Below, piece after piece: positions 819-58,800 of a stretch of 64,000 nucleotides of DNA. Each line of letters begins with the position of its first letter. Within the stretch, counting starts at the first letter, position 1. Source of the stretch: Taeniopygia guttata (lineage: Eukaryota; Chordata; Aves; Passeriformes; Estrildidae); assembly GCF_048771995.1 (NCBI RefSeq), contig NC_133060.1:1137501-1201500 (forward strand). Reading direction: 5' to 3'. A program made the position numbers and the translations under genes. The notes beneath the pieces are model-generated. The model saw nothing but the letters and a program-made list of their open reading frames with translations, ran no database searches and had not been told where the DNA came from.

Positions 819-3800
819 CTGCGGCACAGGGGGGGGTCAGGGGGCGCGGGGACCCCCGGGGAGACCCCTGGGGACCCCAGACTCACCCAGGACCCCCCAG
901 ATCCCCCCCCAAGGACCCCCAGATCCCCCCTCAGCCCCCTGAGATCCCTCCCAGACCCCCCAGATCACCCCAGGCTCACCCACAACCACCCCAGATCCCC
1001 CCCAAGGACCCCCGAGGCTCACCCAAGGACCTCCAACCCCCCTCCAGACCCCCCCAGATCACCCCCAGATCACCCAGGGACCCCCAACCCCCCCCCAGGA
1101 CCCCCCCAGATCACCCCCAGATCACCCAGGGACCACCAGGACCCCCCAAATCCCCCCCCAGGTTCACCCAGGGACCCCCAGGCTCACCCAGGGACCCCCA
1201 GATCCCCCCCAAGGACCCCCAGGACCCCCCAGATCCCCTCCAGGACCCCCCAAACCGCCCCCAGGCTCACCCAGGGACCCCCAGACCCCCCCAGGACCCC
1301 CAAATTCCCCCCAGGACCCCCCAAATCCCCCCTAGACTCACCCAGGGACCCCCAGACCCCCCCAGATGCCCCCCCAAGGACCCCCAGGACCCCCCAGATC
1401 CCCCCCAGGACCCCCCAAATTCCCCCCAGATCTCCCCTAGGACCACCAGGACCCCCCAAATCCCCCCCAGACTTACCCTGGGTCCCCTAGAACCCCCCCA
1501 AAGGACCCCCCAGATCACCCCAGGTTCACCCAGGGACCACCAAAACCCTCCCAGATTCCCCCCAAGGACCCCCAGGCTCACCCAGGGACCCCCAGACCCC
1601 CACCCAGGACCCCCCAAATTCCCCCCAGGACCCCTCAAATCCCCCTTAGACTCACCCAGGGACCCCCAGACCCACCCAGATCCTCCCCAAGGACCCTCCA
1701 AATCCCCCCCAGGACCCCCCAAATCCCACCCAGGCTCACCCAGGGACCACCAGAACCCCCCAGACCCCCCCCCCAGATCACCCCCAGATCACCCAGAGAC
1801 CCTCAGGACCCCCAAATCCCCCCCCCAGGACCCCCCCAGATCACCCCCAGATCACCCAGGGACCACCAGACTCACCCAGGGACCCCCAGATCCCCCCCAA
1901 GGACCCCCAGGACCCCCAGATCCCCCCCAGATCCCTCCCAGGACCCCCCAAATCCTTCCCAGGACCCCCGCAATCCCCCCCCAGACTCACCCAGGGACCC
2001 CCAGACCCCTCCAGGACCCCCCAAATCCCCCTCAGGACACCCCAAACCGCCCCCAGACCCCCCCAAACCCCCCCCAGACTCACCCAGGGACCCCCAAATC
2101 CCCCCCAGGACCCCCCAGACCCCCCCCGACTCACCCAGGGACCCCCAGAGCGATTTGCCGGTGGCCGCGTCCAGCAGCGGCTGTTTGCGGGCGATGCTGA
2201 CCTTGAGCTGCACGTCCTGAACCACCGCCCCGTTCAGCTGGGGGGGGAAAGGGGGGGTCAGGGGCGGGGACCCCCAAAATGGCACCAATTGTACCCGAAA
2301 CGGCATTAATTGTACCCGAAATGGCAGAAATTGTACCCAAAATGGCAGAAATTGTACTCGAAATGGCAGAAATTGTACCCAAAATGGCAGAAATTGTACC
2401 CGAAATGGCACAAATTGTACCCAAAATGGTACAGATTGTACCCAAAATAGCATTAATTGTACCCGAAATGGCAGAAATTATACCCAAAATGGCAAAAATT
2501 GTACCCAAAATGGCAGAAATTGTATCCAAAATGGCATTAATTGTACCCTAAATGACATTAATTGTACCCGAAATGGCAGAAATTGTACCCGAAACGGCAC
2601 AAATCGTACCCAAAATGGCACAAATCGTACCCAAAATGGCATTAATTGCACCCAAAATGGCATTAATTGTACCCGAAATGGCACAAATTGTACCCAAAAT
2701 GGCATTAATTGTACCCGAAACAGCCAAATCACACCCAAACCCAACCCTAAACCCCCTGAAATCCCGCCCCAAACCCCCCAAAATGCCCCAAAATCCCACC
2801 CCAAACACCCCAAACCCCCCCAAAATCCTGCCCCAAACACCCCAAACACCCCAAAATGCCTCAAACACCCCAAATCCCCCAAAATCCCACGCCAAACACC
2901 CAAAATGCCCCAAACACCCCCAAATCCCCCAAAATCCCGCCCCAAACGCCCCAAACCCCCGCCCCACCTCGGCCATGGCCTGGTCGGCCGACTCCATCTT
3001 CTCGAAGGTGACGAAGGCGCAGCTGAGGGGACAAACGGGGGGTGGGGCGGGTCGGGCCACGCCCACATTGACCACACCCAAACGAGCTCCGCCCCCGGCA
3101 CAACCCCGCCCTGTTTAGCTCCGCCCACAACGTGTCCCCGCCCACCTTTGGCTCCGCCCACTAAGGGCCACACCCTCATCTGACCCCACCCCTTTAGGCC
3201 CCACCCACTTTTGGGGCGTGTCCAGGGACAGGTTAATGACGTCATTGTGACCCCGCCCCCTCAGGCCCCGCCCACTTTCGGGGCGTGTCCAGGGACAGGT
3301 CAATGATGTCATTGTGACCACGCCCGTTTAAGCCCCGCCCATTTAAGCCCCACCCACTTTCAGGGCGTGTCCAGGGACAGGTCGATGACGTCACTGTGAC
3401 CCTGCCCCCCTAAGCCCCACCCACTTGTGGGGCGTGTCCAGGGAGAGGTCGATGATGTCACTGTGACCCCGCCCCTTTAAGCCCCACCCACTTCCAGGGC
3501 GTGTCCAGGGACAGGTGGATGACGTCACACCCCTGACCCCGCCCCTTTAGGCCCCACCCACTTGCGGGGCGTGTCCAGGGACAGGTAGATGACGTCACAC
3601 CCCTGACCCCGCCCCCTAAGCCCCACCCACTTGCGGGGCGTGTCCAGGGACAGGTCGATGACATCACTGTGACCCCGCCCCCTAAGCCCCGCCCCCTAAG
3701 CCCCACCCACTTGCGGGGCGTGTCCAGGGACAGGTCAATGACGTAATTGTGACCCCGCCCCCTCAGGCCCCACCCACTTTCGGGGCGTGTCCAGGGACAG

Positions 3801-55800: not shown

Positions 55801-58800
55801 TGACCCCTGTGACCCCCGTTAGACCCCCGTGTGACCCTGTGTGACCCCCCTATGACCCCTGTGACCCCCGTGTGACCCCCATGACCCCCGTGTCCCCTCC
55901 CCAGGTGCTGTCGGAGCTGGGGTACGTCTCGGGGGGCACGGTGGCCCTGGGGGGCTGTCCCCTGACCCCCGTGACCCCTGTGACCCCCGTGTGACCCCTA
56001 TGACCCCCGTATGACCCCCATGAGACCCCCCATGACCCCCGTGCCCCCTCCCCAGGTGCTGTCAGAACTGGGGTACGTTTCGGGGGGCACTGTGGCCCTG
56101 GGGGGCTGCGTGGCCCCTGTGACCCCCCTATGACCCCTGTGACCCCCGTGTGACCCCTGTGACACCCATAACCCCTGTGACCCCCTCCCCAGGTGCTGTC
56201 GGAGCTGGGGTACGTCTCGGGGGGCACGGTGGCCCTGGGGGCTGTCCCCTGACCCCTGTGACCCCTGTGACCCCCGTGTGACCCCCATGACCCCCCTGTG
56301 CCCCCCGTGTCCCCCTGTGACCCCCGTGTCCCCTCCCCAGGTGCTGTCGGAGCTGGGGTACGTCTCGGGGGGCACGGTGGCGCTGGGGGGCCGCGTGGCC
56401 CCTGTGACCCCTGTGTGACCCCTGTGTGACCCCTATGACCCCTATGACCCCTATGACCCCCCTGTGAGACCCCTGTGACCCCTGTCTGACCCCCATGACC
56501 CCGTGCCCCCCCCCCAGGTGCTGTCGGAGCTGGGGTACGTCTCGGGGGGCACTGTGGCCCTGGGGGGCCGCGTGGCCGCCCTGCTGAGCACGGAGCAGCT
56601 GGTGCTGACCGAGCTGCTGCTGAGCAACGCGCTGAGCCCGCTGCGGCCCGAGGAGAGCGCCGCCCTGCTCTCCTGCCTCGTCACCCCCGGCCGCGGGGAC
56701 CCCCTGCCCGAGGGGCTGCCCCCCGCCCTGGCGCAGGTGGGGGGACACGGGGGGTGGGGGGCGGTTTGGGGGGTTTGGGGCACTTTGGGGGGGGTTTGGG
56801 TCACTTTGCGGGGGATATTGGGGGGATATTGGGTGGTTTGGGGGGGATATTGGGGGATTTGGGGGGGTTTGGGGTGGATAATGGGCATTTTGGGGGGGGT
56901 ATTGGGGAGTTTCGGGTGGAATTTGGGGGGTTTGGGGGGGATATTGGGGGGTTTGGGGTGGAATTTGGGGGGTTTTGCGGCGTTTTGGGGGGAAAACTGG
57001 GGGATTTGGGGGGGATATTGGGGGGTTTGGGGGGGTATTGGGGGGTTTGGGGCACTTTGGGGGGGATATTGGGGGGTTTGGGGAGGATATTGGGGGATTT
57101 TGGGGGGATATTGGGGGATTTTGGGGGGATATTGGGGGGTTTGGGGGGATATTGGGGGGTTTGCGGGGGATATTGGGGGGTTTGGGGTGGAATTTGGGGG
57201 GTTTGGGGCACTTTGGGGGGATATTGGGGGGGTTTGGGGGGGATATTGGGGGATACTGGGGAGTTTGGGGGGGATATTGGGAGGTTTTGGGGGGAAAACT
57301 GGGGGGTTTGGGGGGGATATTGGGGGATTTCGGGGGGTATTGGGGGGTTTGGGGTGATATTGGGGGGTTTGGGGTGGATATTGGGGAGTATTGGGGCACT
57401 TTGGGGGGGATATTGGGGCACTTTGGGGGGATATTGGGGGGTTTGGGGTGCTTTGGGGGGGATATTGGGGCACTTTGGGGGGATATTGGGGGTTTTGGGG
57501 CACTTTGGGGGGATATTGGGAGATATTGGCGGGTTTGGGGGGGATATTGGGGGGTTTGGGGTGGATATTGGGGAGTTTGGGGGGGTATTGGGGGGTTTGG
57601 GGGGATATTGGGGTATATTGGGGCACTATGGGGGGATATTGGGGCACTTTGGGGGGTATATTGGGGGGTTTGGGGTGCTTTGGGGGGGATATTGGGGGGT
57701 TTGGGGGGGATATTGGGGGGATATAGGAGGGTTTGGGGGGATATTGGGGGGTTTGGGGCACTTTGGGGGGGATATTGGGGGGTTTGGGGAGGATTTTGGG
57801 GGGTTTGGGGTAATTTTGGGGTAATTTTGCGGTCCCTGACGCCCCCCAGGCCCTGGAGCGGTTGGGGAGGGAGTTTGGGGTAATTTTTGGGGTAATTTTT
57901 TGGGGTAATTTTGGGGTAATTTTGGGATAATTTTGGGGTAATTTTTGGGGTAATTTTTGGGTAATTTTGGGGTAATTTTGGGGTAATTTTTGGGGTAATT
58001 TTTGGGGTAAATTTTGGGGTAAATTTTGGGGTAATTTTTGGGTAATTTTTTGGGTAATTTTGGGGGTAATTTTTGGGTAATTTTTGGGGTAATTTTGCGG
58101 TAATTTTTTGGTAATTTTAGGGTAAATTTTGGGGGTAATTTTGGGGTAATTTGGGGGGTAATTTTGGGGTAATTTTTGGGGTAATTTTGCGGTAATTTTT
58201 TGGTAATTTTAGGGGGTAATTTTTGGGGTAATTTTGGGTTATTTTGGGCTCCCTGCCCCCCCAGGCCCTGGAGCGGTTGGGGAGGGATTTTGGGGTAATT
58301 TTGGGGTAATTTTGGGGTAATTTTTGGGCTCCCTGCCCCCCAGGCCCTGGAGCGCCTCCGCGCCGTCGCCGCCCGCGTGGCCCGGCTGGAGCAGCAGCGC
58401 GGCCTCGGGCCCGGCCCCGACGAATTCGTGGCCCAGTTCGGCTTCAGCCTCGTCCAGGTGGTCTACGAGTGGGCCAGGGGCATGGTGAGACCCCCCAAAA
58501 ACCCCTGGGACCCCCAAAAATCACTCTGGGATCCCCAAAAACCCCCCCTGGGACCCCCAAAAACCCCTCTGGGACCCCCCAAAAACCCCTCTGGGACCAC
58601 CAAAAACCCCCCTGGGACCCCCAAAAACCCCTCTGGGACCCCCAAACACCCCCCTGGGACCATCAAAAATCCCTCCGGGACCCCCAAAAAACCCCCTGGG
58701 ACCCCCAAAAACCCTATCGGGACCACCAAAAATCCCTCTGGGACCCCCAAAAACCCTCTGGGACCACCATAAACCCCCCTGGGACCCCCAAAAACCTCTC

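Follow-up and report, generated by a model that had tools for sequence, protein, structure and literature searches.

Why do the introns of two conserved genes of the zebra finch Taeniopygia guttata contain tandem repeats that carry pieces of the neighbouring exons together with their splice sites? The window, a stretch of 64,000 nt (C37:1137501-1201500; contig NC_133060.1 of assembly GCF_048771995.1), contains, in head-to-head orientation, NELFE (minus strand) and SKIC2 (plus strand). An initial annotation had listed 12 exon-intron junctions of these genes that are included in the units of intronic arrays and had proposed that duplication starts preferentially at exon edges. Probably, the arrays represent exon stuttering, as reported by Hron et al. 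(2026; PMC12954441) for dot chromosomes of the chicken, with a placement that is random with respect to gene structure.

Repeat units span true splice junctions. Each junction was probed with 15 nt of exon and 8 nt of intron sequence, and 19 matches of 23 served as threshold. With this junction probe, copies were detected in the own intron at 13 of the 74 exon-intron junctions of NELFE and SKIC2. Donor-side copies originate from NELFE exons 2, 6, 7 and 9 and SKIC2 exons 1, 22 and 26, acceptor-side copies from NELFE exon 3 and SKIC2 exons 5, 10, 14, 27 and 28. In the control, only 2 of the 74 probes reached a score of 19 anywhere in the other 36 introns. A comparison of units with exons had been suggested in the initial annotation as a refuting test; by blastn, the match is above background, as 13 of 74 adjoining exon-intron pairs match versus 10 of 1369 other pairs, the latter with at most 38.3 bits. 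Six adjoining pairs score just 29.7-36.8 bits, and bit score alone fails to part adjoining from other pairs. Two of the 13 adjoining pairs are interior low-complexity matches of SKIC2 exon 21 and not edge copies. In the remaining 11, the displayed matches stop at the exon border, which is the hallmark of edge copies. No blastn match to the adjoining intron was obtained for NELFE exon 9 and SKIC2 exon 28.

The copies are anchored at the exon edge. Only introns longer than 400 bp were considered for this profile. Among exon 20-mers located 0-9 nt from the edge in NELFE, SKIC2 and PYGM (see below), 25 of 188 (13%) recur in the expanded intron next to the exon. This rate declines steadily inward, to 9%, 6%, 3% and 2% over the following four bins; at a distance of at least 50 nt, 3 of 1089 20-mers are copied. 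All 12 junctions of the initial annotation were recovered and SKIC2 exon 1 was added, but two of them are thin: SKIC2 exon 5 provides a single copy and no array, and SKIC2 exon 28 two copies (best 20/23, 11 exon nt) that the exon-only probe described below does not find. The exon part, given there as 15-60 nt, has medians of 11-61 nt per array. As had been claimed, arrays of donor type are found downstream and those of acceptor type upstream of their source exon, the source exon is left whole, and the pattern occurs on both strands.

The surrounding introns consist almost entirely of repeats. Tandem repeats detected by Tandem Repeats Finder (TRF) account for 93% of the 53,679 intron bases of NELFE and SKIC2. 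Of the 37 introns, 32 are longer than 400 bp, while the other five are unexpanded and measure 81-135 bp. In most junction arrays, the copies have one or two fixed inner exon breakpoints in common, and the spacing between the exon pieces is uneven within an array. Few fixed breakpoints combined with variable spacing are consistent with one or two founding tandem duplications followed by amplification instead of repeated fresh copying of the exon.

The same pattern recurs outside these two genes. A PYGM query matches exon by exon on C33, C7 and C4. The C33 gene, whose end resembles the end of human PYGM, is taken as PYGM on the basis of its sequence; the genes on C7 and C4 are presumably PYGL and PYGB, as judged by chicken gene positions. 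In PYGM, junction copies were found at 6 of 38 junctions (control: 1 of 684 probe-by-other-intron comparisons), and repeats cover 83.5% of the intron sequence. By contrast, its relative on the 65-Mb C7, whose first exon is truncated by the edge of the DNA examined, has copies at 0 of 38 junctions and an intron repeat cover of 9.1%. DDX39B, located on C37 about 25 kb past the window, displays copies at 6 of 18 junctions (control: 0 of 144) and an intron repeat cover of 91.3%. Together, the four affected genes NELFE, SKIC2, PYGM and DDX39B on two contigs have copies at 25 of 130 junctions.

Classical GC-rich minisatellites are, by definition, tandem arrays of short GC-rich units. The arrays analysed here share with them the short GC-rich units, a strong strand asymmetry and the imperfect tandem copies. 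Unlike classical minisatellites, they occupy 32 of the 37 introns of two genes, and some of them hold real splice junctions. The initial annotation knew of no named class for this architecture. However, a name exists: In chicken, the main text of Hron et al. (2026) describes dot chromosome genes with repeat-filled introns under the terms sequence stuttering and exon stuttering. In some of these genes, the lateral part of an exon is copied through the intron together with its donor or acceptor site. Exon stuttering was found there in 236 introns of 115 genes, and 190 of these introns are located on dot chromosomes (PMC12954441). In both birds, introns are composed mostly of local tandem repeats, the exon edge with its splice site is copied, and the exon remains intact. 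Likewise, an ohnolog on another chromosome is free of copies, a contrast that in the zebra finch concerns PYGM and the C7 gene alone. The copied exon parts comprise 20-187 bp with a median of 36 in chicken (PMC12954441) and tens of nt here. PYGM itself sits on a dot chromosome in chicken (Hron et al., 2026; PMC12954441) and on the 5.6-Mb C33 in the zebra finch; C37 measures 4.88 Mb.

In contrast to the present analysis, the exon screen of Hron et al. concerned chicken, and SKIV2L, SKIC2 and NELFE are absent from their main text, the supplement with the 115 genes aside; local expansions in other birds are noted there in some instances (PMC12954441). In the literature searched, which covered neither bioRxiv nor most subscription journals, the term exon stuttering was found in Hron et al. 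alone, and the same holds for sequence stuttering among the related papers searched that date from 2024 onwards. The chicken dot chromosomes portrayed by Huang et al. (2023; PMC9974502) are small, avian and rich in tandem repeats, too, but intron arrays derived from exons are not described in the passages covered, and the word exon is absent from the text consulted. Human variable internal tandem repeats (De Grassi and Ciccarelli, 2009; PMC2812944), as presented in the parts consulted, resemble the arrays in that a minisatellite expansion alters gene structure; they differ in that they concern human paralogs in segmental duplications. The phenomenon is therefore known and newly described, and NELFE, SKIC2 and DDX39B are an extension. 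This extends an instability of avian DNA to further conserved genes and probably to another bird order.

Does the recurrence at exon edges require a trigger located there? Splice-junction-directed initiation would imply that a feature of the exon edge, such as a co-transcriptional structure or a step in GC content, starts the duplications. The anchoring of copies at edges and their recurrence, with 25 of 130 junctions affected across four genes, speak in favour of such a trigger. To judge this number, arrays were placed at random around ancestral introns and counted if they took in a minimum of 13 exon bases and 8 intron bases. The input for NELFE and SKIC2 comprised 54 copy-free TRF arrays and 13 junction arrays, with 20 copy-holding TRF arrays dropped; that for the four genes 122 copy-free TRF arrays and 25 junction arrays, with 41 copy-holding ones dropped. 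For ancestral introns of 80, 100, 150, 200 and 300 bp, 24-26, 23-25, 19-21, 16-18 and 12-15 junction-spanning arrays are expected in the two genes, compared to 13 seen. In the four genes, 25 are seen, compared to expectations of 59-61 (80 bp), 29-32 (300 bp) and 19.5-21.8 (500 bp). An initial list of 76 unit lengths, which was partly compiled by hand (those of SKIC2 exons 5 and 28 were guessed), yielded an expectation of 14-27. It kept some TRF arrays overlapping junction arrays among the intronic ones and was replaced by the scripted list. Hence, unless the ancestral introns were long, there is no clear excess of junction-spanning arrays over random placement, and the proposed preferential start at exon edges (13 seen versus 12-26 at 80-300 bp) is not supported, while a small edge preference would still be compatible with these figures.

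Further observations argue against a trigger at the junction. The unexpanded introns of the two genes, with their 81-135 bp, fall within the range in which random placement yields similar or higher counts. The median inner breakpoints are scattered over 11-61 nt and not bunched, and most TRF arrays of the two genes are free of exon copies (54 versus 20 holding them). The strand asymmetry of the arrays is mixed relative to transcription: 16 of 32 are G-rich and 15 C-rich, and no bias for the transcription strand was seen among these 32 arrays. Splice-junction-directed initiation is thus considered improbable, and no special trigger at exons is required for arrays to cross a junction.

Exon stuttering with random placement could be pictured as follows. 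In a region whose introns are rebuilt almost wholly from local tandem repeats, short segments of tens to a few hundred bp would be duplicated in tandem at sites random with respect to gene structure. A duplication across one splice junction would place a complete exon beside the edge copies and would hence be tolerated, whereas a duplication within an exon would be purged by selection unless it is in frame. The exon edge, flanked by short intronic repeats, would then be passively carried along whenever slippage or unequal exchange lengthens or shortens the array. Two claims of the initial annotation appear in a new light. One full exon always remains, as stated there, but no special mechanism is needed, because whenever a single junction is duplicated in tandem, the exon stays complete at that end. 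Spread only into the intron is nearly right, the exception being an in-frame 21-nt coding repeat of 3.3 copies in SKIC2 exon 21.

Several points weigh against exon stuttering by random duplication. The inner breakpoint is not fixed everywhere: The copies of PYGM exon 1 include 8-41 exon nt, and those of DDX39B exon 9 carry 47 and 20 exon nt. Microhomology at the inner breakpoints is not significant (mean rank 0.59, n = 18 arrays without SKIC2 exon 1, p = 0.11). The placement model is a rough test, since it equates TRF periods and copy spacings with the lengths of the founding duplications, assumes the size of the ancestral introns and gives every placement the same chance of being tolerated. 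With 500-bp ancestral introns, its expectation for the two genes drops to 8.5-10.1 and is lower than the 13 arrays seen, as directed initiation would predict. The chromosome class of the contigs is one that we infer. In addition, the analysis covers one assembly, whereas length variation between individuals is a main feature of stuttering.

Another explanation invokes selection: The copied splice sites might be maintained, e.g. as decoys or for stepwise splicing. With an exon-only probe, the splice-site dinucleotide is intact in 82 of 82 copies from 11 arrays; NELFE exon 9, where G-rich words matched without the junction, and SKIC2 exon 28, for which no copies were obtained, were excluded from this set. 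With the junction probe, which is biased towards intact sites, the dinucleotide is intact in 118 of 119 copies in 18 arrays and in 33 of 33 in DDX39B. However, the copies are related, and their intact sites are not independent. A test by alignment columns found 0 of 22 dinucleotide columns variable compared to 38 of 242 other columns (Fisher p = 0.052), and relative to the exon columns alone, of which just 13 of 154 vary, the contrast is weaker. In the exon-only set, differences were counted in 26 of 1148 exon cells close to the junction and in 90 of 656 cells of the flanking intron, the probe itself lowering the exon figure. The column test provides no clear signal of selection for or against the copied sites: Neither are the copies visibly being disarmed, nor is their protection firmly indicated. 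If the copies in NELFE or SKIC2 were used, 91 of 97 would be predicted to introduce an in-frame stop and 2 a frameshift, and 4 would leave the frame open (NELFE exon 9 matches without GT and SKIC2 exon 28 were excluded). Maintenance by selection is therefore very unlikely. This raises the question of how the splicing machinery passes over roughly a hundred intact copied sites in NELFE and SKIC2; use of most of them would introduce a stop codon. Finally, tandem arrays are difficult to assemble and were judged here from the assembly alone, so that exact copy numbers could still be wrong, but an origin of the exon-like copies in mis-assembled repeats is hardly credible, as the copies vary in substitutions and spacing, the pattern appears in four genes on two contigs yet not in the C7 relative of PYGM, and the structure of chicken PHF8 was verified by raw nanopore data according to the main text of Hron et al. 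(PMC12954441).

How did the arrays arise? A possible clue is a common period of about 10.36 bp that runs through the introns despite differing unit sequences. Averaged over the 32 long introns of NELFE and SKIC2, the autocorrelation peaks at lags 11, 21, 31, 41, 52, 62, 72, 83, 93, 103, 114 and 124. For the periodicity tests, introns of 400 bp or less were excluded, and a strength of 0.08 served as cut-off. In the four genes, 43 of 56 introns above 400 bp are strongly periodic, and the best comb of 34 of these 43 lies at 10.0-10.75 bp within a search range of 7-15. When similar units were grouped, 11 of 12 groups fell within 10.0-10.75 bp, with one mostly G- or C-rich group comprising 32 of the 43 introns. 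Among 1-kb windows of the 64,000-nt stretch and its unmasked flanks, 132 of 202 are strongly periodic, 103 of these 132 at 10.0-10.75 bp, and the pooled flanks have a period of 10.32 bp. PYGM has a comb of 10.38 bp, whereas the comb strength in its C7 relative is 0.004. The comparison with large chromosomes comprises the C7 gene and eight 3-kb loci only; one C32 locus yields 10.27 bp at a strength of 0.043. Base-shuffled introns do not exceed a strength of 0.029, which shows that the periodicity is real but not where the period should fall.

The comb is not universal. Nine strongly periodic introns lie elsewhere: four near 9 bp, one at 8.38, one at 10.91, two at 11.46 and one at 14.29. Some 10-kb stretches of the flanks fit 9.8, 11.0 or 11.3 bp, and at NELFE exons 6 and 7, the units of 66-70 nt do not fit the phase. 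The spacing of exon copies was compared with a 10.35-bp comb in nine arrays, of which four are near phase (SKIC2 exons 14, 22 and 26; NELFE exon 3) and five out of phase (NELFE exons 2, 6 and 7; SKIC2 exons 10 and 27). The idea that the exon-bearing units themselves follow this comb was rejected, because no consistent phase exists across the nine arrays.

It is tentatively suggested that stuttering proceeds in steps of about one helical turn of DNA and that the founding duplications connect sites that face the same side of the helix, a proposal that we regard as possible but rather doubtful. Paired nicks, contacts in nucleosome-wrapped DNA or a filtering of arrays for smooth wrapping are conceivable routes, all of them conjectural. 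If this were true, the exon edges would be passengers, and the missing step of stuttering would become a question of chromatin geometry. A/T runs phased at the helical period of about 10.5 bp are well known (PMC3372288, in the parts consulted). A comb in avian intron arrays was not met in the main text of Hron et al. (PMC12954441), which mentions neither period, helical, nucleosome, 10-bp nor microhomology, nor in the literature searched including PMC8122249, where multi-term searches could miss such a report. The helical-turn periodicity offers a testable clue to the origin of the arrays and is the most original lead of this analysis.

Table 1. Genes, junction arrays and coding repeats in the window (positions are those of the 64,000-nt stretch).
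Feature	Position	Strand	Details
NELFE	748..12670	-	10 coding exons; human residues 1-374 of 382 covered, last 8 unaligned; spliced alignment
Donor-type array, NELFE exon 9	886..2135	-	junction 2135/2134; ~15 exon nt, 12 copies (junction probe)
Donor-type array, NELFE exon 7	3180..4244	-	junction 4212/4211; 31-33 exon nt in 13/14 copies; unit ~67 nt
Donor-type array, NELFE exon 6	5373..5831	-	junction 5810/5809; 22-23 exon nt in 5/6 copies; unit 66-70 nt
Acceptor-type copies, NELFE exon 3	8720..9740	-	true exon start 8486; 38-40 exon nt, 4 copies
Donor-type array, NELFE exon 2	10600..11140	-	junction 11124/11123; 16-17 exon nt, 4 copies
50-nt tandem duplication, SKIC2 start codon, part of first coding exon and donor	13778..13882	+	2 copies, 96% match
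SKIC2	13783..60266	+	29 coding exons; human residues 2-1246; spliced alignment
Lone acceptor-type copy, SKIC2 exon 5	17617..17660	+	true exon start 18041; 26 exon nt
Acceptor-type array, SKIC2 exon 10	22672..23006	+	true exon start 23081; 61 exon nt, 2 copies, unit 171 nt
Acceptor-type array, SKIC2 exon 14	30180..32746	+	true exon start 32747; 19-20 exon nt in 16/17 copies
In-frame 21-nt coding tandem repeat, SKIC2 exon 21 (42391-42564)	42438..42507	+	3.3 copies
Donor-type array, SKIC2 exon 22	45116..46650	+	exon end 45115; 30-31 exon nt in all 13 copies
Donor-type array, SKIC2 exon 26	52141..53790	+	exon end 52140; 40-41 exon nt, 6 copies
Acceptor-type array, SKIC2 exon 27	54170..56517	+	exon start 56518; 49-51 or 60 exon nt, 14 copies
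Two weak acceptor-type copies of SKIC2 exon 28, intron 27	56737..58343	+	exon start 58344; best 20/23, 11 exon nt

The gene models (Table 1) were obtained by spliced protein-to-genome alignment with a custom script using human NELFE and SKIC2 as queries. The NELFE query agrees with PDB chain 7ycx_h except for two residues of the Arg-Asp repeat, and the alignment of the SKIC2 query to 7qdr_A spans residues 1-1246 and is identical in the portion compared. The aligner was restricted to GT or GC donors and AG acceptors, so that their presence is no independent check. SKIC2 exon 15 has a GC donor, and a few exons, e.g. NELFE exon 6 and SKIC2 exons 6 and 23, have poor donor scores. The reading frame is open throughout all modelled exons, i.e. 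the coding sequence is intact.

Within the genes, three further features were observed. The duplication at the 5' end of SKIC2 doubles the start codon and the first donor and looks young according to its match and copy number. The unit of the coding repeat in SKIC2 exon 21 corresponds to seven codons and looks like the GGGGACA-type unit of the next intron; the 58 codons of this exon align to 46 human residues. In NELFE exon 6 (5810-5949), the long Arg-Asp repeat of the human type is nearly gone from the predicted protein.

For the wider setting, the window and the adjoining stretches were searched by tblastn and compared with the human gene order of major histocompatibility complex (MHC) class III. 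DXO yielded no match in these stretches at E 1e-3. CSNK2B is represented by two exon matches, its later exons lying outside the DNA covered. After SKIC2, DDX39B and part of CSNK2B follow (C37:1201501-1331500), and a subset of the human MHC class III genes is retained on the C37 contig.

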